DNA of 32,408 bases, taken from NCBI RefSeq assembly GCF_002723975.1, contig NZ_BEWO01000025.1:1-32408 (forward strand), read 5' to 3'. The notes under the pieces are model-generated. The model had not been told where the DNA came from. It was given only the letters and a program-made list of their open reading frames with translations, and made no database searches. A program made the position numbers and the translations under genes. This document shows positions 1 through 16,570 of this stretch, one piece after another. The stretch is from Gluconobacter japonicus (GTDB taxonomy: Bacteria; Pseudomonadota; Alphaproteobacteria; Acetobacterales; Acetobacteraceae). The number at the start of each line of letters is the position of its first letter. Within the stretch, counting starts at the first letter, position 1.

Positions 1-769
1 ACCGTCAGAATGGCGGCATGACAACAACCGGGTATAGCTTATTCAAACCCAAAAACTGTCCGAACAGACGGGGCCACCTCTGTCGGTATTCCCCGACACC
101 AAAAGGTCTACCCCGCCGATGTTCAACTGATCTTCCCGGTTACAGGTCGCGGCCGTCCACGAGTGCGCCACGTCCCTAATGTCACGTCCGTGGCGGCGCA
201 CACCATGCTCGAAGGGACGAAGTGGCGGCAGGTCAGTTGGCGTAAGGGAACGAAGGGACGCCTGACGGCTCGTTTTGCGGCCATACGCGTGCGCATCGCG
301 GATGGCGCACCCCAGAGGATCGGCTCTGCTGGAGCCCAGCACATGCCGGGCGAAGAAGCCTGGCTTGTGGGGAAGCATCGCTCGAATGGCGAACGAAAAT
401 ACTACCTTTCGAACTTACCGGCCGAGACACCAATCAAGGTTCTGGCTGGCGCGATCAAAGCGCGCTGGATATGCGAACAGGCCCATCAGCAACTCAAAGA
501 GGAGTTGGGGCTGGATCACTTCGAGGGACGATCCTGGACCGGACTTCACCGCCATGCCTTGATGTCGATGATGGCCTACGCCTTCCTGCAGTCCCGCAGA
601 CTCGCTCAGGTGGGACGAAAAAAAAAGAGCCTCCGGACCGCCACCGCAACCCAGTCTGCCATCAGTGCGCCAGGCCATTCTTGAACGCATAGCTCGTTCA
701 CCACCAACACATTGCCCTCATTGCGGATGGACACTCAAAAGACACTCTAACTCAATTCTGCCAAAGTAG
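1..769 (+). pseudogene. IS701-type transposase remnant (5' truncated, frameshifted)
   Basis: The reading frame is open from base 22 to 684 and encodes the C-terminal half of a DDE transposase of the IS701 type. Recognisable blocks are [14 protein letters not shown] near the start, the E-containing block [18 protein letters not shown] around bases 475-525, and [13 protein letters not shown]. An in-frame TGA lies at 19-21 and the N-terminal half is absent from the window. At bases 618-626 there is a run of nine A. Beyond it the family's usual tail ([11 protein letters not shown], then [19 protein letters not shown]) continues in the +1 frame as far as about 745. Removing one A restores a continuous protein, so the copy has gained one A. 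The tail runs into the 3' end of the convergent recombinase gene, and no clear terminal repeat was seen. The family call rests on remembered motifs; the exact IS is unknown. Confidence 0.7.
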
Positions 770-2907: not shown

Positions 2908-3375
2908 CTATTGATTTAGGTTAAACTCGTTTAAAGCCGCTGGGAGATTATGGTTTTCGTGGCCGGAACGGCAAAGTTTCACAAGAGCAAAGCGTTGCAG
3001 AGGCGTTAAGGACGCCCATTTCTGCGTAGGCAGAGGAGAAAGTTCTTTCGCTATAATCTGCTCTTGAAGGCATAATGGGACCGATTGTTCATCCTGCCAT
3101 TCGACAGATTGGGGTCGATCCAGAAAAACAGGCTCTTCGTTGGCGCGCGCACGAATCAAGTTCTTCAGAAATTGGCGGTAACGCTGTCTGTCGACCTCTG
3201 AAGCGGTTGAGAGGTAACAGAGTTCGTAGCGATCTTCGTAGTTGAAACGGCTCCACTGACGGAGACTGAGCTTTATCCCACATTCATCGAGCTTCATGCG
3301 TACGCTCATGGGAATACAACGTAGCGTATCTGCAAAATCGCGCTCGAACCCGAATATCTGTAGATTTGCGATCAT
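2908..3375 (-). CDS. nitrate-reductase-associated protein (Nitr_red_assoc family)
   Basis: A 155-residue soluble protein recognised as the conserved nitrate-reductase-associated family, by FERDFADTLRCIPMSVRMKLDECGIKLSLRQWSRF at the N-terminus and TPLQRFALVKLCRSGHENHNLPAAL near the C-terminus. Its length is normal for the family. No enzymatic motif, signal sequence or membrane segment is visible, and the biochemical role is not established; members are found beside assimilatory nitrate reductase genes in cyanobacteria and proteobacteria. It is the last gene of the nitrate operon, 28 bases after nasS and on the same strand. That placement supports a role in maturation, assembly or activity of the nitrate reductase, which is an inference. 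Confidence 0.8.
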   Translation of the reverse strand: MIANLQIFGFERDFADTLRCIPMSVRMKLDECGIKLSLRQWSRFNYEDRYELCYLSTASEVDRQRYRQFLKNLIRARANEEPVFLDRPQSVEWQDEQSVPLCLQEQIIAKELSPLPTQKWASLTPLQRFALVKLCRSGHENHNLPAALNEFNLNQ

Positions 3376-3403: not shown

Positions 3404-4384
3404 TCAGGAAATAGGTGCTGGTTTGAGCCAACCTATTTCGTAAAGACGCTTCATGTTCGCAGGCGTTAACCAAGACTGTGCCTGCATGGCCTGGACCATC
3501 CAGTTAATTGAAAGGTCGGCGTTTAAGGTCGAAAAATCGAATTGCATGGCGTGTGGGTTATTCTGACAAGGCATGATCTGCGCTGTGGCTTCCGACGGAA
3601 GACTTAAACCGCCATTTGCAATAGAGTTTGAAAGCTGACGAACGACCTCTGCCGAATTGCTGGGATTCATACAGAAGCGTGTGGCTTCGCCGATGGCAGC
3701 GTGCAAATCTTGCGAGAGCGTAGGTGAACTCTGACTCCAGCGTTGTGTCGTCACGAGAGTTTTCTCCAGATGACCGGTATGGATATTGGCGGATCCAGCT
3801 ACGATGGAACCGAGACCACGCAGATCGGCTTCCATTCCCCAAGGTGGGCCAGCACAAAAGCCGTCAATTTCCGCAGCGGCTAGAGCATCGATCATGCGGT
3901 CGGGGGGCATGATAACGATTTCCACATCCTGTTCTGGATGGGCATGCAAGCTTTTGAGGAGGTCCATCAGAATGAGGAAATGGGTCGAATACAGATGTAC
4001 TACTGCCAGCTTGGGGCGCCGGCTTAAACCCGTACGCCAGCTTTCAAAATTTCGGTGCTTTGTCACGTCATCCGTTCCCAGGAACGGTGGGAGGTGCTGT
4101 CCACGAAGAACAACCGTGTTGCCGCCACGGCTGATAGGGATACCCCGGTGCAGGTCGATTTCCCGACCGCGATGACCCAGCGCCGTCATGATCGCCAAAG
4201 GAGGGAAAACCAGCGCAGCGTCCAGTCCATTCCAGACAAGACCATCTGCGATATTGGCCCACGATGGCGAGACTATCAGTTCCGCATCCAGACCATGTTT
4301 TTCAAATATTCCGAGATTGCGGGCGATAATCAGAGGGGCGCTATCTGCCAGCCTCAGCAGGCCTATTCTGATGGCAGAACTCAT
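3404..4384 (-). CDS. nasS: NasS, cytoplasmic nitrate/nitrite sensor (NrtA/CmpA-like)
   Basis: A 326-residue protein of the NrtA/CmpA nitrate-binding fold: IRIGLLRLADSAPLIIARNLGIFEKHGL at the start, then blocks such as HLYSTHFLILMDLL and EIDGFCAGPPWG. It begins directly with the mature fold and has no signal peptide or lipobox. This separates the cytoplasmic sensor NasS from true ABC-transporter binding proteins. In characterised systems NasS holds NasT inactive until nitrate or nitrite binds. Its ATG overlaps the nasT stop by four bases (ATGA), so the pair is translationally coupled. No ABC permease or ATPase gene is nearby, which also argues for sensor rather than transport duty. The nitrate-reductase-associated gene follows 28 bases downstream. 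Confidence 0.87.
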   Translation of the reverse strand: MSSAIRIGLLRLADSAPLIIARNLGIFEKHGLDAELIVSPSWANIADGLVWNGLDAALVFPPLAIMTALGHRGREIDLHRGIPISRGGNTVVLRGQHLPPFLGTDDVTKHRNFESWRTGLSRRPKLAVVHLYSTHFLILMDLLKSLHAHPEQDVEIVIMPPDRMIDALAAAEIDGFCAGPPWGMEADLRGLGSIVAGSANIHTGHLEKTLVTTQRWSQSSPTLSQDLHAAIGEATRFCMNPSNSAEVVRQLSNSIANGGLSLPSEATAQIMPCQNNPHAMQFDFSTLNADLSINWMVQAMQAQSWLTPANMKRLYEIGWLKPAPIS

Positions 4385-4968
4385 GATGCATCATCCTTGG
4401 TGTGAACCCGGAGGTAGTCAGTGGCGACATCCACCAGCTTACGGGCCTGCTGCATGGCTCGGCGTCTGAACCAGCGATAGGCTTCTGCCTCGCTGCAGCG
4501 TTCGTTACGCATGAAGATTCTCTTTGCTGTATCGACAGTTTCCCGATCCGAAAGGACCTGTCGGGCCGCTTTCAGCTCGGCTGCTGTTTCCTGAAAGCGA
4601 CGGTATAGTGCAATCGCCGACCGAAGCAGGGGTTTGACGTCCCGAGGCGGCGTATCCATCACGTTGTAGGAACAGACGCCAGCCGCAAAAGCATCTTCCA
4701 TGAGCGCTTCGTCATCTTCGTCGACAAACAGGGCGACGGGGCGCTCCAACCCGGAGGAGGATAGCGCCCGCACACTGTCCAGTCCGTCGCGGTCGGCGCG
4801 GCAGATGTCCACGAGCACAATGTCAGGAACGTGAGCTTTGACCGCTGAAATCAGACTTTCGTACCCTTCAAGTCGAATGACCTCCAATGAAGAATCAGCT
4901 TTCAAAATCTCTGACAGGGCGCCAGCCCGCTGGGAGTTCTCGTCTGCGAGAAGAATTTTCATTGTCAT
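4381..4968 (-). CDS. nasT: NasT, ANTAR-domain antiterminator
   Basis: A 195-residue two-domain protein. Residues 3 to about 120 form a receiver-like domain: KILLADE at the start and IVLVDICRAD with Asp54 in the usual acceptor position. Residues about 130-190 form an ANTAR RNA-binding domain: LSDRETVDTAKRIFMRNERCSEAEAYRWFRRRAMQQ, followed by LVDVATDYL. ANTAR proteins bind pairs of hexaloop RNA hairpins and prevent termination. In NasT this is released by nitrate acting through NasS rather than by phosphorylation. The gene begins nine bases after the nitrate reductase stop and overlaps nasS by four bases. Two hairpins with the matching loop pattern lie in the narK leader (14710-14729 and 14764-14787), making the operon leader the likely target. 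Confidence 0.9.
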   Translation of the reverse strand: MTMKILLADENSQRAGALSEILKADSSLEVIRLEGYESLISAVKAHVPDIVLVDICRADRDGLDSVRALSSSGLERPVALFVDEDDEALMEDAFAAGVCSYNVMDTPPRDVKPLLRSAIALYRRFQETAAELKAARQVLSDRETVDTAKRIFMRNERCSEAEAYRWFRRRAMQQARKLVDVATDYLRVHTKDDAS

Positions 4969-4977
4969 GGAGCTATA

Positions 4978-7900
4978 TCAGTACACATCACGGACGTATC
5001 GCCCATTTCTTACAAGGTTACTGACATACTCATCGGCCTGTTCCGTGGACATACCGCCATAGCGGGCTACGATACGGCGCAGGGCGCTATCGACGTCCCT
5101 GGCCATTCGCGCAGCATCTCCGCACACGTAGAAATATGCGCCTCCATGCAGCCATCTCCAGAGTTCTTCGCCGTTTTCTTCCATGCGGTCCTGGACATAG
5201 ATCCGCTGGTCCTGATCACGGGAAAATGCCATATGCAGATGTGTCAGGCATCCCTGTTCCATGAAGCCTTCCAGCTCCTCGCGATAGTAAAACCCGTTTT
5301 CTGCATGACGCTCTCCGAAGAAAAGCCAGTTTCGGCCCGGGCTGTTACAGGCCGCCCGCTCCTGGAGGAAAGCACGGAAGGGGGCAATTCCTGTGCCTGG
5401 CCCCACCATGATGACAGATTTGGTATGATCGTCAGGTAAACGGAACTGGGATGTGGTCTGTAGGAAAACCGGGACCTCGGAATCTTCGTGTAAACTTCCC
5501 AGCCAGTTTGAGCACAGACCAGGGTAGGGCTCATTATTGACACCCACCGTGATGTGTACGCTGTCAGGGTATGCTTTCAGCGATGATGCGATTGAATAGA
5601 GGCGAGGCTGCATCCGGCGGAAAAGGTTCGGGATATCCTGAGCCTGCACGCCGATTTTGGCTGTTGCCAGCAGCTCCGGCAGGTAGCTGGAAGACGGCGC
5701 CCCCAATTTTTCCAGCAACGCCGGAGACGGTCGGGACAGATCGAAATGTCTGGTCAGGGCGTCTGCGAGCGACACAGTTCCATGACCTCGCACTGAGACT
5801 GTTGTGCCGGAAGGTAGTCCCAGAGAGCTTAGAACGCTCTCAACAGTTGAGTCAGCATTGCAGGGCCAGACCCCCAGAGCATCCCCAGGTTCATAGTGCA
5901 ATCCTGTCCCGGAGAGATCCAGAACGATCTGTCGTGTTTCCTTGTCGCTGTTCCTTCCCGTCAGGCAGTGATTAAGGCTGATGCGTGCAATCGCAGGGTT
6001 GGCTCGGGTGATGGCTGGTGCGTCCGGTAACGGAACGGCTGGGACTGGGACCGTTTTGGCACCCAGGGCAGCCAGAAATCTGTGCTGCCAAGCCTCAACG
6101 GTTTCTTCGTAATCGGGCTCACAATCCTGTCGTGGCATAAGCGGGGTTGCGCCGAGCGCGATCAGGCGGGCATCAAGAGCCCGACCAAACCCGCAGAAAC
6201 TGGCGTATGAAGAATCCCCAAGAGCTATCATGGCGTAACGGATATCTTCGCGCAGTTCCTGAGTATTGCGAAGCTCATCCCAGAAAGCACTGGCGCTATC
6301 AGGGGCATCTCCGTCGCCGAAGGTGGAAACGACGAAGAGGACCGTTCCGCAAAGATCGGCGGGTTTGCTGGTATCCAGACTCGTGGCATCGACACCGTAG
6401 CCGCTTTCTTTCAGCCAGACAGCGAGTTCTTCAGCCAGACCTTCTGCCCGACCTGTCTGGGACGCCCACCGAAGAAGAAGCCTTGGTTGGGTACCGGTCG
6501 GACTTTCCGAAACAGCAGGATCCTTCGACACAGGGCTGCGGGCATACAGACCAGCCAGAAGGCCATTAATTCTGGCTTTCTGCTCTGTCGGCAAAGGAGC
6601 ACTCGGGGGAACAAAGGGAAGCTCGTTTGCCGGTGGGGCAAGTTTCAGGCCGTCCATGAATCCCGTCAACCACTGGCGACTTTCAACGGACAGGACCAGG
6701 GGTTCCGCTCGAGCGAGGCCAAGATGCTGTGTCAGATAATCAAGCGGCATGGCAGGAGCGTTCTCCTCTGCGGGAACAGAAACAGTTTCGATGCGCGAGA
6801 GGGACACTGCGCAGTGTTTGATCCCGGGCTGAAGGGAGACGGGGTCCGTGAAATCGGCCGTGACAGCATTGATTGTCAGATTTTCGCCGAAGCGGTCGTT
6901 CCAGTGAAAGGGTGCAAAGCATGTTCCCGGCGCAACGCGGTCAGTTGGACGGGCGGGAAGGATTGCGGTGCCCCGGCGGGAGCGGAGTTCGACGGGATCG
7001 TCCTTGCACAGGCCCAGCCGTTCGGCATCAGCAAGAGCGATTTCCACGAAAGGGCCGGAATTGAGCTTGTTAAGTCCATCGATCCGACCAGTTTTGGTGA
7101 GCGTGTGCCATTGATGCTGGAGGCGCCCGGTGTTGAGCAGGAAAGGGAATTCGTCGTCCGGCTGTTCTTCCAAGGGGAGATAAGGTCGGGCATGAAAAGC
7201 CGCTTTTCCGTCGTCAGTGGCGAAAACAGGCGGTTTATTCGGGTCAGGCCGGTAGCGGATCGGATGGCGGGGCAGGGCGTCTCCCGTCTGACTAGGCCAC
7301 TGGACGGGACCGGATTTCAGACGGTCGTGGCTAACTCCGGAAATATCGTAGCCTGTCCTGGGATTGGCGAAACGGCTGGCTTCGTCAAAGACTTCAGTAG
7401 AAGATGAGAAAGTGAAAGCCTCCTCAAAGCCCATCTCACAGGCGACACGTGCAATGATGTCCCAGTCTGCCATGGCTTCACCGGGCGGAGAGACAGCCTG
7501 CCGGGCCAGCGTCATGGTGCGGTCAGAGTTGACCAGCACGCCATCTCCTTCGGCCCATAACGCACCCGGCAGAAGAATATCCGCATAAGCCGCCGTTTCC
7601 GTGTCGGCGTAGGCATCCTGAACAATGACCAGATCAGCGGCTTCAAGAGCCGCGGTAACGTTGGCACGGCGTGGCACAGTCGCGACAGGGTTTGTGCAGA
7701 TGATCCAGCAGGCACGGATTTCACCGCGGGTCATGGCTTCGAACATGGCTATCGCGCCATGGCCACCTGCTTTGCGAATGGTTCCTGCGGGCAGCTTCCA
7801 TTGTTGCTCGACAAAGGCCCGGTCATCATCGACCAATGCCGAGCGCTGGCCGGGGAGGCCGGGGCCCATATAGCCCATTTCTCGACCACCCATGGCATTG

Positions 7901-8901
7901 GGCTGTCCTGTGAGGGAAAACGGTCCGGCGCCCGTGCGGCAAATGGCGCCAGTGGCAAGATGAAGATTGCAGATCGCGTTGGTATTCCAGGCTCCTGAAG
8001 TGCTCTGGTTCAGTCCCATGGTCCACAGCGTCAACCACGCATCGGCTTCCGCAATCCATCTGGCGGCTGTTTCGATATCATCTTGTGGAAGGCCGGTAAT
8101 CCCGGCAACGCGTTCGGGAGAATAATCTGCCAGAAAAGCTGGCATATCGCTCCAGTCCTTCGTTGCACTGGCGATAAAGTCCGGATCTATCGCGTCATCA
8201 CGAACCAGAATGTGAAGAATGCCGTTCAGCAGGGCGAGATCGGTGCCTGGGCGGATCTGAAGGAACAGGTCCGCCTTGTCTGCCGTAGCGGTCCGTCGTG
8301 GATCAACGACGATGAGTTTAGCTCCCTGACGTTTGCGGTCCATCAGGCGCAGGAACAGGATCGGATGGCAGTCGGCCATATTGGCGCCGATCACGAAGAA
8401 CAGGTCCGTGCAGTCGAAATCCTCGTAGCTTCCCGGAGGGGCATCTGCGCCCAGGGAGAGTTTGTAGCCAGCTCCCGCCGCCGCCATGCACAGACGGGAG
8501 TTGGACTCGATATGCTGGGTTCTCAGGTATCCTTTGACGAGTTTGTTCGCCAGATACTGCGCTTCCAGAGACATCTGGCCGGAGACGTAAAGGGAGATCG
8601 CATCCGGGCCGTATTCTTCCAGAATCTGCTTCAGGCGACGGGCTGTTTCCCTGATGGCTGCGTCCATTCGGGTGGGAACGGGCAGAGACGTCCTGTGCGG
8701 CCGGATCTGCGGCATATCCAGCCGTGTAGACGATGACACCGGTTTGTCGCAGGAACTTCCTTTGGTGCATAGGCGACCACCATTCGTCGGGTGCTCGGTA
8801 TCTCCGCGCACCTTGACGATCTGATGGTTCTCAACCTCCAGCACGATGCCGCAGCCGACACCGCAATAGGGGCAGACAGAACGGATGTCTTCCCGTGTCA
8901 T
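4978..8901 (-). CDS. assimilatory nitrate reductase fused to CysJ-type diflavin reductase
   Basis: A 1,307-residue fusion that should reduce nitrate to nitrite with NADPH as a single chain in the cytoplasm. Residues 1 to about 740 are a NasA/NapA-type molybdopterin oxidoreductase. The 4Fe-4S ligands are Cys10, 13, 17 and 45 (CPYCGVGCG and LCTKG), and Cys138 (SRLCMAAA) sits at the molybdenum ligand position. From about residue 805 comes a flavodoxin domain (RWASQTGRAEG, then VVSTFGDGDAPDSA) binding FMN. About residues 970-1307 form a CysJ-like FAD/NADPH module with YSIASS near 1104, GPGTGIAPFRAFLQERA near 1167 and the typical C-terminal YVRDVY. Such fusions exist in some alphaproteobacteria. 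No Tat signal is seen. The ATG lies six bases after the nirBD stop, and nasT follows nine bases downstream. It needs bis-MGD cofactor made elsewhere in the genome. Confidence 0.93.
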   Translation of the reverse strand: MTREDIRSVCPYCGVGCGIVLEVENHQIVKVRGDTEHPTNGGRLCTKGSSCDKPVSSSTRLDMPQIRPHRTSLPVPTRMDAAIRETARRLKQILEEYGPDAISLYVSGQMSLEAQYLANKLVKGYLRTQHIESNSRLCMAAAGAGYKLSLGADAPPGSYEDFDCTDLFFVIGANMADCHPILFLRLMDRKRQGAKLIVVDPRRTATADKADLFLQIRPGTDLALLNGILHILVRDDAIDPDFIASATKDWSDMPAFLADYSPERVAGITGLPQDDIETAARWIAEADAWLTLWTMGLNQSTSGAWNTNAICNLHLATGAICRTGAGPFSLTGQPNAMGGREMGYMGPGLPGQRSALVDDDRAFVEQQWKLPAGTIRKAGGHGAIAMFEAMTRGEIRACWIICTNPVATVPRRANVTAALEAADLVIVQDAYADTETAAYADILLPGALWAEGDGVLVNSDRTMTLARQAVSPPGEAMADWDIIARVACEMGFEEAFTFSSSTEVFDEASRFANPRTGYDISGVSHDRLKSGPVQWPSQTGDALPRHPIRYRPDPNKPPVFATDDGKAAFHARPYLPLEEQPDDEFPFLLNTGRLQHQWHTLTKTGRIDGLNKLNSGPFVEIALADAERLGLCKDDPVELRSRRGTAILPARPTDRVAPGTCFAPFHWNDRFGENLTINAVTADFTDPVSLQPGIKHCAVSLSRIETVSVPAEENAPAMPLDYLTQHLGLARAEPLVLSVESRQWLTGFMDGLKLAPPANELPFVPPSAPLPTEQKARINGLLAGLYARSPVSKDPAVSESPTGTQPRLLLRWASQTGRAEGLAEELAVWLKESGYGVDATSLDTSKPADLCGTVLFVVSTFGDGDAPDSASAFWDELRNTQELREDIRYAMIALGDSSYASFCGFGRALDARLIALGATPLMPRQDCEPDYEETVEAWQHRFLAALGAKTVPVPAVPLPDAPAITRANPAIARISLNHCLTGRNSDKETRQIVLDLSGTGLHYEPGDALGVWPCNADSTVESVLSSLGLPSGTTVSVRGHGTVSLADALTRHFDLSRPSPALLEKLGAPSSSYLPELLATAKIGVQAQDIPNLFRRMQPRLYSIASSLKAYPDSVHITVGVNNEPYPGLCSNWLGSLHEDSEVPVFLQTTSQFRLPDDHTKSVIMVGPGTGIAPFRAFLQERAACNSPGRNWLFFGERHAENGFYYREELEGFMEQGCLTHLHMAFSRDQDQRIYVQDRMEENGEELWRWLHGGAYFYVCGDAARMARDVDSALRRIVARYGGMSTEQADEYVSNLVRNGRYVRDVY

Positions 8902-8907
8902 GAACAG

Positions 8908-11832
8908 TTAAGCAGACAGGCGTTCTGCGATGGTCTCCATAACCCTGGCGCGGATTTCAACCTTGCCTTCGGGGGTCAGACGCGTGTCCCACGTTCGCAG
9001 GGATTTGCTGGAATCTTCAAGACAGATCCCGTTTTCCAGATTGAAATGCTGTTTGTAAAGCGGGGAGGCGACAACGAGCTGCCCCCGCAGATCCCCTATG
9101 ATGCCGCGTCCGATGATATTGGCCTTCGAGAATGGGTCATGGTTGTCCACGGCAAAAACGCGGGCTGATGTATTTTCCGTTTCCGGCAGATAAAACAGGG
9201 CGATCTGCGCACCTTCATACCAGGCAACCACGCCTGATCGTGGGACCAGATCGTTCTTGTTGCACAGGGCCGTCCATTCCACCGGACCCGCGCCTTCCAA
9301 AAAGGTAGCCTGATTGGGGGCTGGTTTGACCTGATCGCGCTCGGGAACAAGCTGAACGTTTGGATCGGGGCGGCTGTCATTGACAAAAGTGCGGAAGCGC
9401 TTGAGCTTCTCGCCGTCCGTCAGGGCATCCTTCCATTCACAGTGGTATGTTTCGACCACATGCTGCATCTGCTGTTCCAGCTCTTCGGCAATGCCAAGGC
9501 TGTCCTTGATGATGACGTCTTTGAGATAATCGAGACCGCCCTCCAGACCTTCCCGCCAGACAGACGTGCGCTGGAGCTTGTCTGCGGTACGGATGTAGAA
9601 CATCAGGAAGCGGTCGATGTATTTCACGAGCGTTTCTGAATCGAGATCGGTCGCGAAAAGCTCTGCATGGCGCGGACGCATCCCGCCATTGCCACAGACA
9701 TACAGGTTCCAGCCGTTTTCCGTAGCGATAATGCCCACATCCTTGCTCTGCGCCTCGGCGCATTCCCGCGTACAGCCGGATACGGCGAATTTGAGCTTGT
9801 GCGGAGAGCGCAGCCCCTTATAGCGGTTCTCAAGATCCAGCGCCTTACCGACGCTATCCTGCACGCCATAACGGCACCATGTGCTGCCAACACAGGATTT
9901 TACCGTCCGTGTGGACTTTCCATAAGCATGGCCCGTCTCAAACCCTGCCTCCAGAAGCTCTCCCCAGATTTCGGGAAGCTGGTGGAGTTGAGCGCCAAAC
10001 AGATCGACACGCTGGCCACCGGTGATCTTGGTGTAGAGGCCATATTTCTTTGCAACCTGCCCCAGGACAATCAGCTTGTCCGGGGTAATTTCGCCACCTG
10101 CAATGCGAGGAACTACCGAGTAGGTGCCGTTCTTCTGCATATTGGCCATGAACGTGTCGTTCGTGTCCTGCAAAGGAATATAGAGCGGATCGGTGATCGG
10201 CTTGTTCCATGCCGAGGCAAGGATCGAGCCAATGGTTGGCTTGCAGATATCGCAGCCTAAACCGCCATTACCGTGGCGTGTCATCAGCTCTTCAAAGCTG
10301 CGGATGCCATGGACACGAACGAGGGAGTACAACTCCTGACGTGTATGGGAAAAATGCTCGCAAAGGCTGTGATCGACCTCGATGCCCCGGGCGGAAAGTT
10401 CCGTTTCGAACACGCTCTTGAGCAGAGCCGCGCAGCCGCCGCAGCCTGTACTGGCCTTTGTGCTCTGCTTGAGCGTGGCCAGATCGGCGCAACCCGCATC
10501 AATGGCGCTACAGATCGAGCCTTTCGTAACGTTGTGGCAGGAGCAGATCATGGCCGTATCAGGCAGGGCGTCCGCGCCCAGAAGCTCTGCCCCTTCATCA
10601 CGCGGCAGGATCAGTGCGGCGGGGTCAGCCGGCGGTTTGATGCCGTTCTGAACATACTGGAAGATGGTATCATAATAGGAGTTGTCTCCGACGAGGATCG
10701 CCCCTGTCACGCGCTGGCCATCCGCAGAGAGAACGAGGCGGCGATAGGAGCCGTCTGCTTCGCCGATAAAGCGATAGCTCGTCGCGCCGTGCTCACGGCC
10801 ATGTGCATCGCCGATCGAGCCGACATCCACGCCTTGGAGTTTGAGTTTGGTGGACATGTCCGCCCCCGTGAAGGCGGCATCTTCTCCGGCCAGCAGGGAG
10901 GCCACAGTGCGCGCCATGGTGTATCCCGGCCCGACCAGACCAAAGACCTGATCCTGCCAGAGGGCGCATTCGCCTATGGCAAAAATGTCCGGATCGGACG
11001 TCCTGCACTGATTGTCGATCACGATGCCGCCACGGGCTCCCACAGCCAGCCCGCAGGCCCGCCCGAGTTGATCCGTGGGGCGGATACCGGCAGAGAAAAC
11101 AACCATATCGGTTTCAAACGAAGGACTGTCTGCAAATATCAGACGATGACGATGCTGCTCCCCTGCAACGATTTCTCTGGTCGCATGTGACGTTCTCACA
11201 TCGATACCCAGCGCCTCGATGCGGCTGCGGAGCGCACGGCCACCATCTTCATCGAGCTGGGCTGACATCAGATGTGTTCCAAGCTGGACGACGCTGACCT
11301 CCAGACCAAGAAGTTTCAGGGCGTGAGCGGCTTCCAGACCAAGCAGGCCCCCACCAATGACAGTTCCGTGGCGAGCTCCTTCGGCTGCAGCCCGGATAAC
11401 GTCCAGATCTTCAAGGGTTCGGTAGACCAGTCCCGCAGTTCCGGTATTGCCCGGGACTGACGGAACGAAAGGCGTGGAACCTGTTGCCAGGATCAGGGTG
11501 TTGTAGGGCAGAAGACCGTCTTCGCTTTCAACGGTCTTGGCGTCACGGTCGATCCGCATGACAGGAACACCCAGATGCATGGTGATGCCGTGAGCCGAGT
11601 GAAAATCTTCCTCATGCAGACGCAGGGCCAGCGCATCCTGACCCGTCATGTATTCCGTAAGATGAACGCGGTCATAGGCATGGTGGGGTTCAGCACCAAA
11701 AACATGGATTTGATGCGTTTCATGCAGTCCGTGCATGACGAGCTGCTCGGCACAGTAATGTCCAACCATTCCGTTGCCGATGATGATGATGTTCTCTTTC
11801 ATGGTCATCCGTCCGTTCTGTGGGTCAGTCAT
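8908..11832 (-). CDS. nirB: NirBD fusion, NAD(P)H-dependent assimilatory nitrite reductase
   Basis: A 974-residue protein that reduces nitrite to ammonium. Residues 13-410 are the FAD/NAD(P)H module (IIIIGNGMVG; TVIGGGLLGLEAA near 158). A Bfd-like 2Fe-2S segment has Cys430, 432, 464 and 467. About residues 560-830 are the sirohaem/4Fe-4S domain with Cys647 and Cys653 (SCVGSTWCRYG) and Cys687 and Cys691 (SGCTRECAEA). About residues 850-960 form a NirD domain, normally a separate small subunit. Like other NirD proteins, this domain lacks Rieske cysteines. Three starts are possible: 11832, 11808 and 11802. The last two, MTMKEN and MKEN, fit the family best and have a GGACGG nearby. The 11832 ATG lies two bases after the porin stop, so translational coupling is likely. 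Confidence 0.92.
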   Translation of the reverse strand: MTDPQNGRMTMKENIIIIGNGMVGHYCAEQLVMHGLHETHQIHVFGAEPHHAYDRVHLTEYMTGQDALALRLHEEDFHSAHGITMHLGVPVMRIDRDAKTVESEDGLLPYNTLILATGSTPFVPSVPGNTGTAGLVYRTLEDLDVIRAAAEGARHGTVIGGGLLGLEAAHALKLLGLEVSVVQLGTHLMSAQLDEDGGRALRSRIEALGIDVRTSHATREIVAGEQHRHRLIFADSPSFETDMVVFSAGIRPTDQLGRACGLAVGARGGIVIDNQCRTSDPDIFAIGECALWQDQVFGLVGPGYTMARTVASLLAGEDAAFTGADMSTKLKLQGVDVGSIGDAHGREHGATSYRFIGEADGSYRRLVLSADGQRVTGAILVGDNSYYDTIFQYVQNGIKPPADPAALILPRDEGAELLGADALPDTAMICSCHNVTKGSICSAIDAGCADLATLKQSTKASTGCGGCAALLKSVFETELSARGIEVDHSLCEHFSHTRQELYSLVRVHGIRSFEELMTRHGNGGLGCDICKPTIGSILASAWNKPITDPLYIPLQDTNDTFMANMQKNGTYSVVPRIAGGEITPDKLIVLGQVAKKYGLYTKITGGQRVDLFGAQLHQLPEIWGELLEAGFETGHAYGKSTRTVKSCVGSTWCRYGVQDSVGKALDLENRYKGLRSPHKLKFAVSGCTRECAEAQSKDVGIIATENGWNLYVCGNGGMRPRHAELFATDLDSETLVKYIDRFLMFYIRTADKLQRTSVWREGLEGGLDYLKDVIIKDSLGIAEELEQQMQHVVETYHCEWKDALTDGEKLKRFRTFVNDSRPDPNVQLVPERDQVKPAPNQATFLEGAGPVEWTALCNKNDLVPRSGVVAWYEGAQIALFYLPETENTSARVFAVDNHDPFSKANIIGRGIIGDLRGQLVVASPLYKQHFNLENGICLEDSSKSLRTWDTRLTPEGKVEIRARVMETIAERLSA

Positions 11833-11834
11833 GG

Positions 11835-13471
11835 TCAGAACTTGAATTCGAGGGTCTGCATGTAAAATGCGTCGCTCTTCGCGCCTGCTGCGTGCATGCT
11901 ACGGGACGCGATGAAGCCCACAATGTCGTGCGTCCAGGTCCAGTGCGGAGCAAAATTCCAGGCAAGCTGCGTCTGGGGAGCAGCTCCGATAAAGCCGCCG
12001 GATAACCCATTGCGCCAGGAATAGATCTTGCCTGTGCCATAAACCGCATCCTGTGTGCTTTCCCGCCAGAAGAAAGGAACATGCAGCTTGAAGTGAAGGT
12101 TTTTCCGCAGGGCGAATGTTGCCAGCGGCCCCACACCGATCAGGTTCTGGGACGTCACGGACAAGGTGACGTCATTGTAGTACGGCAGAGGAAAATAGGG
12201 GGAGGCAAATGTTCCGACTGCGCCATCCTTGCTATGATAGGAGCCGCCGGAAAAAAGATCGGCCTGCAGACCAGCGCTCGGCTTGGTCGCAAGATCAGGA
12301 CGGTTATACAGCAGGGATGCATTAACAGCATAAGCCCGTACAGCACGGGTGGGCTGCCTTTCCTGTGCTGGCCGAAACTGGCCTCCCTGAAACACACCGC
12401 TCAGGCTCGTCGAGAAAGGGCCGATATTTCCCCATAGTCGCATGCCGACATTGTCCCGACGGCTGGAACCTGCCTCTGTACCCGTTGTCGTCGGGATAGA
12501 TGCTGTGGAGCCACTGTAGAGATAACCGATGTAAAAGACGTCTGCGAAAAGCTGACTCTTCTTTCCCATGGCTCTGAATGCAGGAAGCGCCGTGGACGTC
12601 ATGGCGCCATACATCCGGGCACTGTAGTTCGTGCCATCTCCAAAGACAGCATCAGGCAGTTTGTTGGTCTGCATGAAATCAAACAGATCCACCCGAAAAC
12701 GTTTCCAGATGGCATAGCCACGGCTACCATCCCAGGTCTGCTGTGCATTCGTCAGGTCCCGGGCGGACTGCATGAAGACAGGCGTATCAAGGAAGACCTG
12801 TCGACCACCAATAATGCCGGCTTTGGCTCCCAGAAGATTGCCCTTCACTTCCAGAATACCCTGCTGGAGATCCAGTCGTTCCCGCTGCACCCCTGTCTGG
12901 TATCCGTAGGTATTGGAGCCTCCTGCGACGCCGTACAGGAACTCGGCATAAGCGCGGACATGCGCTCCCAGATGAAGATCGGCGCCATAAAGATTGCGCA
13001 GAAGAACCCGGTTGGCGTTGGTCTTGCCTGCCGTTCCCATCATGGGCTGGTTTTCGTAGACATAACGGAGGCGTTCTTCCGCGTTCAGAGAAAGCCAGAT
13101 ACTTCCGCTTTCATTCAGGCGAATATATTTCAGGCGGCTGAACCAGTCATTCCTGCGCTGTTCCGGCGGGGTATTAACGATATCGCTCCAGTCTTCCGCC
13201 CAACGAACCTGACCAAAGCCTGCCATTGACCCGAAACCGGATGCGGCTCCGTTCCCCGCATTGAAAGCATCCCAGTCCGGGGAGTGCGCGGAGCGGTTTT
13301 GCTGGGTGTGAACCGGCGGAGTGACGGCTTTTGTTCTGGAGCGTTCGGACAGATGAACCCCGACATGGGGGTTGGGAGTATCGTCAGCTTTCACAATGCC
13401 AGCCCCCCCAAAGCAAGACCTGCCAGCCCGGGCGCATAGGGAAGGGGAGAGAAGACGGAAAGACCAGTCAT
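11835..13471 (-). pseudogene. alginate-export-type outer membrane porin, signal sequence out of frame at a G7 tract
   Basis: The body (frame open from about 13520 down to the TGA at 11835) is an outer-membrane beta-barrel of the alginate-export porin family. It has repeated alternating strands, blocks such as NESGSIWLSLNAEERLRY, GIIGGRQVFLDTP and LDLQQGILEVKG, and a C-terminal strand ending in Phe (TLEFKF). No good start exists in that frame; only a TTG inside narK is available. The natural start is the ATG at 13471, which overlaps the narK stop as TGATG and is preceded by GGGAGA. It encodes MTGLSVFSPLPYAPGLAGLA, a signal-like hydrophobic segment, but reaches a stop just after seven G (13403-13409). 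One extra G joins it to GIVKADDTPNPHVG. The protein is therefore off, phase-variable, or the tract is misread. It probably admits nitrate or another anion or sugar; the substrate is inferred from position only. Confidence 0.8.
13403..13409 (-). repeat. G7 homopolymer in porin signal region
   Basis: Seven consecutive G on the coding strand (C on the plus strand) sit where the signal-sequence frame and the barrel frame of the porin part. Eight G (or five) would fuse them. Position and type match slipped-strand switches known for surface proteins. Confidence 0.85.
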
Positions 13472-14652
13472 CAGCCGATCTCCCGCCAGCGATGGTGACA
13501 CAGTACAACGGCGATGCAAGCAATCAGGCAGATCCCGGCGAAAGCGAGAAATCCCGGCCCGTAAGAATTGACGATCTGTCGGGCTTCCCCCAGTGAGAGC
13601 GCCAGGTAGAAGCCGCCGACCCCGCCGGCCATACCGACCAGCCCTGTCAGAATGCCGACCTGACGCGGGAAGCGTGCTGGAACAAGCTGAAAAACCGCGC
13701 CATTGCCCAGCCCGAGCGTTACCATCCCCAGAAGGAATACCGGGAATGCGAGATAGATTGTCGGAAGTCCAAGGGCGATGACGCAAAAGCAGCCTGCCGC
13801 GACCGCGTACAGGATGGCCAGGGCTTTGGTGCCGCCCACCCGGTCGGCAAAGGCACCTCCAACAGGACGGACAAAAGAGCCTACGAAAACGACAAATGCC
13901 GTACACGCACCAGCAATGGTGGGAGAGAGATTGTACTGGTCGTTGAAATAGATGGTGAGGAAAGACGCGAGACCCACAAACCCACCAAAGGTCACGCTGT
14001 AGAAGAACATCAGCAGCCAGCTATCGCCGGATCCAAGAACTGGACCCCATGAGCACAGGCCCGAAGATGCTGGCCGACTGACGGGCTCTCTGGCCAGAAT
14101 AAGGAAAAGCAGCAGAACGCAGATGAGCGGAAGCGTCGCAAGTCCGATGACGTTGCGCCATCCCACCACAACCGCCAGTCCGGGCGCAAAAAGTGAGGCC
14201 AGTGCGGTTCCTGAGTTGCCTGCGCCAGCAATACCGAGCGCGGTGCCTTGATAATGTGGGGGATACCAGACAGAGGCGAGGGGAAGAGCAATGGCGAAAG
14301 ACGCGCCTGCAACGCCGAGAATACCCGCCAGCCCAAACATCTGGGCGTAGGTATGCGGCGCAAGGTACCAAGTTAAGGCAAGGCCTATAATGACTGTAAG
14401 CTGTGCGGCAATCGCAACACGGCGAGGGCCGAACATGTCTACAAGTCCACCTGCCAGCACGCGAAACGCAGCTCCAGCCAGGACAGGAGTAGCAACAAGC
14501 AGGCCTTTCTGCCCGGCATTCAGATGCAGGTCATGCGCAATGGCAATGCCGAGAGGGCCCAGCAACACCCAGATCATGAATGAGACGTCGAAATACAGAA
14601 AAGCGGCCAGCAGGGTTGGTGCGTGCCCGGCTTTCAGGAAACCCCTGTCCAC
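13471..14652 (-). CDS. narK: NarK-type MFS nitrate/nitrite transporter
   Basis: A 393-residue polytopic inner-membrane protein with about 12 hydrophobic segments. It matches the nitrate/nitrite porter family: DVSFMIWVLLGPLGIAIAHDL in the first helix, RVLAGGLVDMFGPRR in the first cytoplasmic loop, and the Gly-rich nitrate signature AGNSGTALASLFAPGLA in helix 5. A second Gly-rich stretch (GMVTLGLGNGAVFQLVP) occurs near helix 10 or 11. It starts at a GTG (14652) with only a weak GGAA upstream. It is the first gene of the operon and would bring nitrate into the cytoplasm for the reductase. A structured leader with two ANTAR-type hairpins lies 58-135 bases upstream of the start. Its stop overlaps the start of the porin (TGATG). 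Confidence 0.92.
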   Translation of the reverse strand: MDRGFLKAGHAPTLLAAFLYFDVSFMIWVLLGPLGIAIAHDLHLNAGQKGLLVATPVLAGAAFRVLAGGLVDMFGPRRVAIAAQLTVIIGLALTWYLAPHTYAQMFGLAGILGVAGASFAIALPLASVWYPPHYQGTALGIAGAGNSGTALASLFAPGLAVVVGWRNVIGLATLPLICVLLLFLILAREPVSRPASSGLCSWGPVLGSGDSWLLMFFYSVTFGGFVGLASFLTIYFNDQYNLSPTIAGACTAFVVFVGSFVRPVGGAFADRVGGTKALAILYAVAAGCFCVIALGLPTIYLAFPVFLLGMVTLGLGNGAVFQLVPARFPRQVGILTGLVGMAGGVGGFYLALSLGEARQIVNSYGPGFLAFAGICLIACIAVVLCHHRWREIG

Positions 14653-14694
14653 GATACATTTCCAGACGAGGCATCAAACCAAGGATGCATCATC

Positions 14695-14707
14695 GCCCCT
14701 GCGGGGC
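14695..14707 (-). promoter_or_regulatory. GC-rich hairpin, candidate conditional terminator in narK leader
   Basis: In the narK transcript, GCCCC and GGGGC pair around a GCA loop directly downstream of the second ANTAR hairpin. Its CCCC arm can instead pair with the GGGG at the foot of that hairpin, so the two structures compete, as antitermination needs. There is no clear U run after it, so whether it terminates RNA polymerase is uncertain. Confidence 0.4.
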
Positions 14708-14709
14708 CA

Positions 14710-14729
14710 GTGGACCGCCATTGATCCAC
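14710..14729 (-). promoter_or_regulatory. ANTAR target hairpin P2 in narK leader
   Basis: In the transcript, arms GUGGAUC and GGUCCAC form a 7-bp stem with a hexaloop AAUGGC. The loop has A at position 1 and G at position 4, the pattern recognised by ANTAR proteins such as NasT and EutV. It can be extended by GGG pairing with downstream CCC. Confidence 0.65.
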
Positions 14730-14763
14730 CCCATGCGTCTCCGTCCTGATCGGACAAACCCGA

Positions 14764-14787
14764 CTCTCCGCCGACACTGACGGAGAA
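14764..14787 (-). promoter_or_regulatory. ANTAR target hairpin P1 in narK leader
   Basis: In the transcript, arms UUCUCCGUC and GGCGGAGAG form a 9-bp stem, including G-U pairs, with a hexaloop AGUGUC (A at 1, G at 4). It lies 34 bases upstream of P2. Two such hairpins in tandem before a nasT-linked operon are the expected NasT antitermination site. Confidence 0.65.
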
Positions 14788-15016
14788 TCATCATACTAAG
14801 ACATACTTTACTATCACGGAATGGTCCGATTTCGGAATAGAAAATTATTTAATCGAGATGATTACAAACATTACAATCGCTACTGACTGTGGGTTGCGTT
14901 GAACGCCTAAAGCGTCGAACAAACGGACTTGGCTAATGAGACCAAGAGGGTTTTCAATGAGACAGAGTCGGCCGAGTTCGACGTCATAATTAGGAAACAT
15001 ATCCTGAAGTTTCTGA

Positions 15017-15280
15017 AAAAAGAAGGGAGCAATCGGCGCTGACACATTTCTCTGCCCTTCCTCCCTGATCGAAACGCGTGCCGTTGCCACGCTACCTCTT
15101 TATGCCGCTCAAAGTCTTGCTGCTGTTTCAGGCCTTACTGTCTGCGCGGCACCCATTGATTTGGGAGACTACTTTGTATCGATCCCCTGGCAGAGAACGG
15201 CCGATAATCCCTGGATGCGTCAGATTATGAGCGATGCCTTCCTGGCGATTTTACTGGACTTAGAAGCAATGTATTCAGGT
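15017..15280 (+). pseudogene. LysR-type regulator C-terminal remnant
   Basis: The frame after the TGA at 15014-15016 reads ADTFLCPSSLIETRAVATLP, then LYAAQSLAAVSGLTVCAAPIDLG and DYFVSIPWQRTADNPWMR. This has the order and spacing of the end of a LysR substrate-binding domain (the VATLP block, then PIDLG, then the IPWQRTADNPWMR-type end). The upstream part on the plus strand (about 14880-15014) keeps only scattered similarity and several stops. No helix-turn-helix is found. An IS5-family element begins directly after it at 15281. It lies divergent to narK and may once have regulated nitrogen genes. The family is judged by eye and the gene is clearly non-functional. Confidence 0.5.
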
Positions 15281-16570
15281 GGAGGGTTCGAAAAACCCTC
15301 TGGTTTTTGGGCCCTCTGTGTGATTCCATTCCTCATGTGGAGAGTGGGGGGCTAGCTTATGAAGCCGCCGGCTTTCTTTGATGTTGAAGAGCGTCTTGCT
15401 CGGCTGAGCGGGCTTGGTGATCAGCTCGCAGCATTTTCCCGGACTGTGGATTTCGAAACATTACGTTCTGACCTGGATAAAGCTCTGGCCTATGCAGACG
15501 GCAGTAAAGGCGGTCGTCCACCGTTTGATCCGGTTCTGATGTTCAAGATTTTGGTCATCCAGACGTTGAACAACCTGTCCGACGAACGGACGGAATATCT
15601 GATCAACGATCGGCTTTCCTTCATGCGTTTTCTTGGTCTGGGGCTGTCGGACCGCGTACCCGATGCCAAAACGGTCTGGCTGTTTCGCGAACGTCTGACC
15701 CAGGGGGGTGCGATTGAAAAGCTGTTTGAGCGGTTTGACGCGATCCTGAGGACTGCCGGTTATTTGCCAATGTCAGGCCAGATCGTGGATGCGACATTGG
15801 TGGCAGCTCCAAAGCAGCGCAACACCAATGCTGAGAAAGCAGATATTCGGGAGGGACGGATCCCACAGGACTGGCAGGACAAGCCCTCAAAGCTTTCTCA
15901 CAAAGATCGTCATGCACGCTGGACTTTGAAGTTTACCAAGGCAAAGCGGCAGGATGACGGAACGATCCCCGCAACGGATCTCGCCATTCCCTTCTTTGGC
16001 TACAAATCCCACATTTCCATCGACCGGAAGTTTCGGCTGATCCGGAAGTGGAAAGCGACAGATGCAGCAGCCAGTGATGGTGCCCGACTGCGCGAGGGGC
16101 TGCTGGACAAAACCAACACCGCCTCAACAGTCTGGGCAGACACAGCCTACCGCTCAAAAGCCAACGAAGACTTCATGGACAAGCAGGGCTTTGTCTCGAA
16201 GGTCCACAGGAAAAAGCCGCATCTCAAACCCATGCCCCGGCACATCCAGCGCTCCAATGCCGGAAAGTCCATTATTCGATCGCGTGTCGAACATGTCTTT
16301 GCTGATCAGAAGTCACAGACCGGGCTGTTCGTCCGGACTGTGGGCATAACTCGAGCCACCATGAGGATCGGGCTGGCCAATATCGTCTATAATATGCGCC
16401 GCTTCCTTTTCCTCGAGAGGATCAGCGCCGCCGCGTAGCAATCCAAAGCCAATGTCCAACGCTCTGCGAAAGACGCAGCGCTAAAATCAGAGACAAGAAC
16501 CATCAACCAACACGAAATAACCCTGAAATCAGGATCCAATGGCCCCGATCAAAGGTTCTTCGATCCCTCT
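15281..16570 (+). mobile_element. IS5-family insertion sequence, copy 1 (intact)
   Basis: An element of about 1.29 kb bounded by GGAGGGTTCGAA at the left and TTCGATCCCTCT at the right, which are imperfect inverted repeats. The same ends occur in the copies at 20168-21435 and 32054 onward. No direct target duplication is visible. The left flank is a LysR remnant and the right flank is an SRAP remnant, so the two flanks belong to different genes. This suggests recombination between copies rather than one simple insertion. Confidence 0.85.
15359..16438 (+). CDS. IS5-family transposase
   Basis: A 359-residue DDE transposase with no interruption. An N-terminal DUF772-like region (GGRPPFDPVLMFKILVIQTL, NLSDERTEYLINDRLSFMRF) is followed by the catalytic core: Asp144 in QIVDATLVAAPKQRNT, Asp261 in WADTAYRSKANE and Glu311 in SRVEHVFADQ. 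The start ATG follows GGGGGGCTAGCTT, and the length fits the IS5 group of the family. It is the only complete transposase gene of this type here and could drive movement of the related defective copies and the 86-bp element. Residue identity with copy 2 is high over the whole length. Confidence 0.93.
   Translation: MKPPAFFDVEERLARLSGLGDQLAAFSRTVDFETLRSDLDKALAYADGSKGGRPPFDPVLMFKILVIQTLNNLSDERTEYLINDRLSFMRFLGLGLSDRVPDAKTVWLFRERLTQGGAIEKLFERFDAILRTAGYLPMSGQIVDATLVAAPKQRNTNAEKADIREGRIPQDWQDKPSKLSHKDRHARWTLKFTKAKRQDDGTIPATDLAIPFFGYKSHISIDRKFRLIRKWKATDAAASDGARLREGLLDKTNTASTVWADTAYRSKANEDFMDKQGFVSKVHRKKPHLKPMPRHIQRSNAGKSIIRSRVEHVFADQKSQTGLFVRTVGITRATMRIGLANIVYNMRRFLFLERISAAA

Follow-up and report, generated by a model that had tools for sequence, protein, structure and literature searches.

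The transcript leader of the nitrate operon of Gluconobacter japonicus contains two hexaloop hairpins that very likely make it an ANTAR-target RNA leader. We propose, at a probability that we put slightly above one half (about 0.57), that this leader is the target RNA of the operon's own NasT and that control is exerted without an intrinsic terminator, most likely on translation initiation. The proposal is drawn from sequence comparison and predicted folding of the window, by which we mean the whole 32,408-nucleotide stretch of DNA analyzed, and of related leaders.

Architecture of the narK leader

The narK leader, read on the minus strand, consists of five hairpins in series (P1, Pm, P2, H3 and H4), followed by a Shine-Dalgarno sequence and the GTG start at 14652. 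The elements and the basis for each are as follows.

14762..14789, minus strand: P1, an 11-bp hairpin with hexaloop AGUGUC at 14778-14773, A at 1 and G at 4 (fold, covariation in 27 leaders, tandem scan)
14740..14758, minus strand: Pm, a hairpin within the P1-P2 linker (fold)
14709..14730, minus strand: P2, an 8-bp hairpin with hexaloop AAUGGC at 14722-14717 (fold, covariation)
14695..14707, minus strand: H3, the GC-rich hairpin GCCCC-GCA-GGGGC (fold)
14665..14694, minus strand: H4, a hairpin whose end directly precedes the Shine-Dalgarno sequence (fold)
14659..14663, minus strand: Shine-Dalgarno-like GGAAA of narK (sequence; relatives carry GGAA, GGGA or GGAU at the same place)

Both hexaloops lie exactly where a preliminary description of this DNA had placed two stems with six-base loops bearing A at 1 and G at 4. 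Scanning both strands of the window for tandem ANNGNN hairpins (stems of at least 6 bp, a G-C closing pair and loops 36-70 nt apart) returned this single pair, whose loops start at 14778 and 14722. The two stems are separated by a linker of 31 nt, which corresponds to a loop-to-loop distance of 56 nt, and the end of P2 lies another 56 nt from the narK start codon. The segment 14653-14800 folds more strongly than its dinucleotide shuffles (z = -2.48, with 1 of 200 shuffles equally good). An Rfam search of the window returned no family at its gathering score, and a permissive search of 14500-15400 gave nothing relevant, the three weak matches including one to a snoRNA model (E = 9.4) that overlaps P1.

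The operon and its regulator pair

Downstream of the leader, the minus strand encodes, in order, narK, a porin, a nirBD fusion, a nitrate reductase fusion, nasT, nasS and a nitrate-reductase-associated protein.

13471..14652, minus strand: narK, an MFS transporter with a GTG start (Pfam MFS_1, homologues; the name follows the earlier finding and position)
11835..13523, minus strand: porin-like outer-membrane protein, Alginate_exp (PF13372); the listed TTG start overlaps narK and the true start may be later
8908..11832, minus strand: NirB-NirD fusion, nitrite reductase (Pfam)
4978..8901, minus strand: assimilatory nitrate reductase plus flavodoxin/FAD/NAD reductase module in a single 1307-aa protein (Pfam)
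4381..4968, minus strand: nasT, response-regulator receiver plus ANTAR domain (PF03861, PF00072)
3404..4384, minus strand: nasS, candidate NMT1-like nitrate sensor (PF13379), named by position and family
2908..3375, minus strand: nitrate-reductase-associated protein (PF09655)

Directly upstream of the operon sits an IS-type transposase (DUF772/DDE_Tnp_1) at 15359-16438 on the plus strand.

The operon had been said to encode NasT and NasS in an acetic acid bacterium, and the Pfam matches bear this out, with a receiver-ANTAR protein standing beside an NMT1-like sensor candidate in a nitrate operon, which is the arrangement by which a NasS-NasT pair is recognized. The nasT gene is also the sole ANTAR match in the genome. 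NasT aligned with EutV (6wsh/6ww6) at E = 2.4e-8 and, in EutV residue names that we mapped onto a chain numbering two higher, retains Arg142, Lys149, Glu160, Arg168 and Met172. According to the accessible text on the EutV-RNA structure, Arg142, Lys149 and Glu160 hold G4 (PMC8934654). Relative to EutV, NasT carries Gln for Asn173, Ala for Arg175 and Lys for Arg177, and the cross-chain contacts Lys143 and Lys147 are replaced by Glu and Thr.

Conservation and covariation of the hairpins in relatives

A NarK protein search of 200 Acetobacteraceae genomes yielded matches in 126, and we examined the regions upstream of 30 of the best 31 narK places, including the window's own and leaving out weaker matches. 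These regions were selected by protein similarity alone, without use of the RNA. Tandem hairpins were present in 22 of the 30 with stems of at least 5 bp, in 19 at 6 bp and in 14 at 7 bp, whereas shuffles would give 0.07, 0.03 and 0.01, respectively. The preliminary description had made its proposal depend on conservation of both hexaloops in homologous leaders, and we found P1 and P2 to be assignable by eye in 27 of the 30 (all but L025, L026 and L028), with strong covariation. Within the alignment of these 27 leaders, whose covariation counts are inflated by kinship, 87.4% of P1/P2 cells are paired versus 67.7% in shuffles and 86 cells contain double-sided changes versus 32.2. Such changes affect 13 of 15 pairs compared with 10.9 in shuffles, a figure reached by 28 of 500.

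As the rows were picked by the A..G.. loop motif, the invariance of A1 and G4 (27 of 27 leaders, and seen in the window) is partly by construction. Among the features that the selection did not require, a C-G pair closes all 54 loops, position 2 is A instead of G in 51 of 54 (the pattern search behind the by-eye assignment having favored A or G at positions 2 and 5) and position 6 is C in 41 of 54. Loop-to-loop distances in the 27 leaders range from 42 to 66 nt with a median of 58. The structure of Pm, rather than its sequence, is kept in relatives; the linkers have a slight folding advantage over shuffles (mean z -0.99), those of L005, L007 and L012 barely folding. Across 20 leaders of the window clade, P2, H3 and H4 covary, with double-sided changes in 61 cells versus 19.0. 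For H3 these changes touch two of four pairs with 79.2% of cells paired, eight rows apparently being shifted by the aligner, and for H4 they touch five of eight pairs with 79.9% of cells paired.

Distribution of the leader

A covariance model built from the 27 leaders matched 52 places in 50 of 397 Acetobacteraceae genomes, two of 385 genomes in a sample of the class, one of them the window's own, and one of 299 in a sample of the phylum, again only the window's own. Searches over more than 40 genomes used strict filters under which weak matches are lost, and one genome (G085) was missed though its leader is part of the model. Within Gluconobacter the leader is patchy, with model matches in two of 13 other genomes. 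Operon and leader are present together in five named Gluconobacter records, in three of which the leader sequence is identical, and a model stripped of Gluconobacter rows recovered all five leaders within their loci. G. frateurii NBRC 3264, a laboratory strain with the operon, shows the full set of five hairpins in its leader. When this reduced model was run against the window's own genome, the window leader came out on top with a modest E = 0.107 (29.5 bits), and as further NasT targets the search offered only matches at E = 3.47 and 9.47.

The genes behind 53 leaders (the 52 places plus the leader of G085) are narK in 44 cases, nirB in three (L066, L076 and L083), a porin gene in one (L080) and a NasS-like gene in four (L082, L084, L085 and L086), while L087 has no match to the operon proteins. 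Among the first 200 family genomes, NasT is found in 27 of the 30 with a match to the leader model versus 33 of the 170 without (P ~1e-13, uncorrected for kinship), the three leader genomes that lack a NasT match being G027, G083 and G174.

Two arrangements seen among these leaders are of separate note. At L079, in G174, narK matches fall in two pieces in different frames and are followed by nasS-matching fragments, in a genome without a NasT match; going by these fragments, this is a decaying operon with the leader retained (52.3 bits). In a distant relative (L096, in G078), nasT lies directly upstream of the leader, whereas in the window it lies within the downstream operon, implying that feedback may have been gained or lost.

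Promoter region

In the window we noted, by an alignment made by eye with the TATAGT of other Gluconobacter, one weak candidate element.

14810..14815, minus strand: possible -10 element GATAGT

The motif TTGACA occurs in three of four other distinct Gluconobacter leaders and is absent from the window and from G. potus. The corresponding stretch of the window without TTGACA (14801-14870, minus strand) includes the palindrome TCCGAAATCGGA. The 27 leaders include 14, all outside the window clade, in which a sigma-54-like GGCM-N6-TTGC box ends at a distance of 29-57 nt upstream of P1, where 0.39 would be expected; such boxes suggest that transcription runs through the hairpins. TTTTGAC is found in six of the remaining leaders and also in G. 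aidae, P1C6_b, Dm-62, G. frateurii and G366. To judge from these motifs, the promoter type has changed while the leader stayed.

Absence of a recognizable terminator

The lack of a U run after the GC-rich hairpin H3, remarked upon in the preliminary description, was seen again in the window leader and holds in general for the scored set of 38 narK leaders, so that an intrinsic terminator is unlikely to be the mechanism. A pattern scan of 14500-15400 returned no terminator-like site in the leader, and its one minus-strand site, at 14946, lies upstream. The wider sample comprised 47 narK leaders (43 from the model search, that of G085 added by hand and three named), reduced to 40 by removal of near-duplicates, of which 38 were scored, L027 and L029 having no automatic P2. 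A stricter detector run from P2 to the start codon (a hairpin of -9 kcal/mol or below, then at least 5 U in 7) flagged two of the 38, L068 and L129, both with interrupted U tracts, versus 0.9 in shuffles; with this detector the downstream intrinsic terminator that defines an antiterminator was not found. A looser setting (-6 kcal/mol, 4 U), applied to most of the leader and without a shuffle control, flagged 13 of 40, including the window, whose tail reads UUUGAUG. U runs of at least 4 were present in seven of the 40 narK leaders and runs of 5 in two. A rut-like stretch with C exceeding G was absent from the window leader, whose C/G ratio over 78 nt reaches 0.71 at most; one such 78-nt stretch, with a ratio of 1.37, is located within the first 300 nt of narK. 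The distance from the end of P2 to the start codon spans 13-66 nt in the 27 leaders, assuming 8-bp stems. It is only 13-18 nt in four of them, and in G007 the Shine-Dalgarno sequence AGGAG follows P2 almost directly.

As comparators outside the family we scanned 26 loci and then 26 stretches, 25 of which are larger regions around the same genes, over 190-200 nt past P2; this is longer than in the family, making the contrast one of kind with unmatched rates. The first scan gave ten tandem candidates, some of them in coding sequence. Four, from other alphaproteobacteria (L105, L108, L112 and L117), have a hairpin followed by 5-6 U between P2 and a start codon placed by eye. The terminators of L105 and L112 recur in the second scan as L143 and L150, and L146 shows another candidate with an apparent terminator. 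For L098 and L100/L163, which precede narK, the detector calls fall in or across the coding start and these leaders were taken to be without a leader terminator. Going by these loci, terminator-less narK leaders extend beyond the Acetobacteraceae and the family is not a strict limit.

L105 is also of note for its layout around the match at 311-380 (minus strand). Here the 5' arm of a strong intrinsic terminator itself contains an extra hexaloop hairpin (loop AAAGGC), the classical antiterminator arrangement in an alphaproteobacterial leader.

Predicted folding at the P2 base and the ribosome-binding site

The preliminary description had further held that the base of P2 competes with the GC-rich hairpin downstream. 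We evaluated the GGGG/CCCC register, in which the P2 base would pair with the 5' arm of H3, and observed that 68.5% of cells can pair versus 59.7% when shuffled (1 of 500 as high), with double-sided changes in 7 cells versus 3.4 (5 of 500). The covariation score is 0.166 versus 0.089 (3 of 500). Kinship alone can produce such values without structure. A register slid by one scores alike (65.5% of cells, 0.172), three of the four pairs alone give 66.0%, and another off-by-one register gives 49.1% against a shuffled mean of 49.4. The weak covariation would fit a refolding switch. In the predicted ensembles of seven window-clade leaders, the window included, the pairing has a probability of 0 to 0.053 and H3 one of 0.67 to 1.00, and the P2 core and H3 are predicted to coexist. 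The proposed competition has weak covariation in its favor and a negligible predicted probability against it.

Unaided, P2 has a median predicted probability of 0.965 across 38 leaders, exceeding 0.8 in 26 and not in the other 12. With P2 formed, opening of the ribosome site would cost less in 5 of the 38 and more in 6, the other 27 differing by no more than 0.5 kcal/mol. On the basis of these site-opening values and the P2-base/H3 results, equilibrium folding shows neither a clear terminator switch nor a clear ribosome-site switch.

Two further arrangements were considered and discarded, namely sequestration of the ribosome site under control of P2, for which folding gave no consistent link in 38 leaders, and a distant interaction between the start codon and the 5' end of the transcript, which appeared in some minimum-energy folds and scored a mean z of 0.08 in 40 leaders.

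Relation to known ANTAR systems

ANTAR proteins are mostly known as antiterminators. The NasT-NasS leaders of Paracoccus denitrificans nasA and Bradyrhizobium diazoefficiens nosR, together with the one predicted for B. diazoefficiens narK, share with the window leader the regulator pair, the kind of gene and the leader hairpins. In the accessible accounts they are described as acting by transcription antitermination, whereas no intrinsic terminator was found in the window leader. The window also differs from them in carrying nasT and nasS within the controlled operon and in the wide separation of P1 and P2, with a hairpin between them. The Klebsiella oxytoca nas leader with NasR is likewise a nitrate operon leader bound by an ANTAR protein, binding by NasT being a prediction here. 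As far as the available text goes, NasR is its own nitrate sensor and works through a terminator, whereas the window encodes NasS and NasT as two proteins and yielded no terminator. ANTAR RNAs of mycobacteria and other actinobacteria are described as acting near ribosome-binding sites; in the window, which holds a proteobacterial nitrate operon, P2 is positioned upstream of that site.

The EutV antiterminator of Enterococcus faecalis likewise uses two hairpins with A1/G4 hexaloops (PMC3369931; 6WW6), and its G4-holding residues are kept in NasT. In the parts of these sources that could be accessed, EutV linkers measure 5-12 nt and P2 lies within the terminator, whereas the window has a linker of 31 nt, a P2 predicted to be stable alone and no terminator that we could find. 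EutV action is reported there to be reduced or abolished by a 14-nt linker or by lengthening the linker by 20 nt, which counts against our reading of NasT. The published dual-hexaloop search motif, as given in the accessible text, allows a variable linker, and a short one is not defining (PMC3369931).

What that motif asks for, namely two hairpins with stems of 3 bp or more, A1/G4 hexaloops on both and an ANTAR gene in the genome, is all present, in agreement with the recognition pattern first claimed for this leader. In the defining respects examined, and as far as the motif is set out in the accessible text, the window leader is by its sequence an ANTAR-target RNA (PMC3369931). For lack of a detected terminator it does not, as far as tested, qualify as an ANTAR antiterminator. 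Terminator-less matches to ANTAR-target RNAs were earlier suggested to control translation (accessible text of PMC3369931), and translational control is reported for ANTAR RNAs of actinobacteria (accessible text of PMC8164766), which gives the idea precedent. Among the matches listed in our literature search, which mostly left subscription journals uncovered, there was no NasT leader in acetic acid bacteria and no such proteobacterial nitrate lineage, and the supplementary tables of PMC3369931 may list such leaders.

A model for NasT action and its alternatives

In the mechanism that we favor, nitrate would make NasS release NasT, and a NasT dimer would then dock on the loops of P1 and P2. Docking would raise expression of narK-porin-nirBD-nasA-nasT-nasS, nasT itself included, which would constitute positive feedback; the direction of the effect, activation, is taken by analogy from NasT in other bacteria. 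Bound NasT would affect translation initiation at the ribosome-binding site of narK and thereby also the survival of the message. Action at this site appears most likely because no terminator was found and because P2 is predicted to fold alone in most leaders, and we infer translation in particular from the way the site leads into the ribosome-binding site and from the precedent of a P. denitrificans nas message without protein. In that bacterium, according to the available text, nas messages are present without protein until nitrate is supplied, and a translational step has been proposed (PMC5424462). The covarying P1 and P2 with their ANTAR-type loops, the retained G4-holding residues and the tendency of NasT and leader to share genomes speak for NasT as the regulator. 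We count against this model the long loop spacing, the replacement of Lys143 and Lys147, the modest score when Gluconobacter was left out, the 12 of 38 leaders in which the P2 probability does not exceed 0.8, the three leader genomes that have no NasT match, the lack of a consistent effect of P2 on opening of the ribosome site, the 13 of 40 leaders flagged by the looser terminator setting and the weak covariation of the P2-base/H3 pairing.

Other alphaproteobacteria are described as using NasT for antitermination (accessible text of PMC6759348), and the leader may instead work in this way through a terminator that escaped recognition, at H3, H4 or a Rho-dependent site, with NasT at P1 and P2 letting polymerase pass and perhaps extending P2 into the 5' arm of H3. 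The hairpin and U tract after P2 in four comparator leaders outside the family, the conservation of H3 and H4, the weakly covarying pairing of the P2 base with H3, the 13 of 40 leaders flagged by the looser detector and the C-rich stretch inside early narK would all suit this mechanism. We nevertheless regard it as less likely than the favored model, as the strict detector barely exceeded expectation (2 of 38 versus 0.9), the four leaders in which P2 approaches the start codon to within 13-18 nt leave little room, the P2-base/H3 pairing is at most 0.053 probable in the seven predicted ensembles and the window leader itself reaches a C/G ratio of 0.71 at best.

P2 of the window ends 56 nt before the start, which is beyond the usual ribosome footprint, and a nitrate-released factor that repressed assimilation genes would oppose the usual physiology; we therefore consider it improbable that NasT represses translation beside the ribosome-binding site, by analogy with mycobacterial ANTAR RNAs. 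Speaking for such repression are the four of 27 leaders with the closest P2, the mycobacterial case itself, in which ANTAR binding near ribosome sites represses translation (accessible text of PMC8164766), and the rise of B. diazoefficiens narK in a nasT mutant despite predicted NasT-type leader hairpins (accessible text of PMC6759348). Inverted repeats can also be operators, and the hairpins could in principle be DNA operators or incidental palindromes rather than RNA sites. However, the U-G wobbles beside the loop-closing pair and the fixed loops on variable stems argue for an RNA on the minus strand, compensated and G-U-containing variable stems with fixed loops being the opposite of a DNA palindrome. 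With the hairpins downstream of predicted promoters and the tandem far above chance, we give the DNA reading hardly any weight.

Extending terminator-independent activation of translation by NasT beyond this operon, we tentatively suggest, with less than even confidence, that in acetic acid bacteria and some of their kin NasT has shifted from antitermination to this mode of action by way of a long-spaced dual-hexaloop leader in which P2 leads into the ribosome-binding site. If true, one conserved RNA-binding signal would serve two expression platforms within one bacterial class, and the occurrence of the same loops and the same regulator where no terminator was found would provide a natural test of NasT acting after transcription. 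Such a shift would bear on two puzzles, the nas message without protein in P. denitrificans and the increase of narK in the nasT mutant of B. diazoefficiens.
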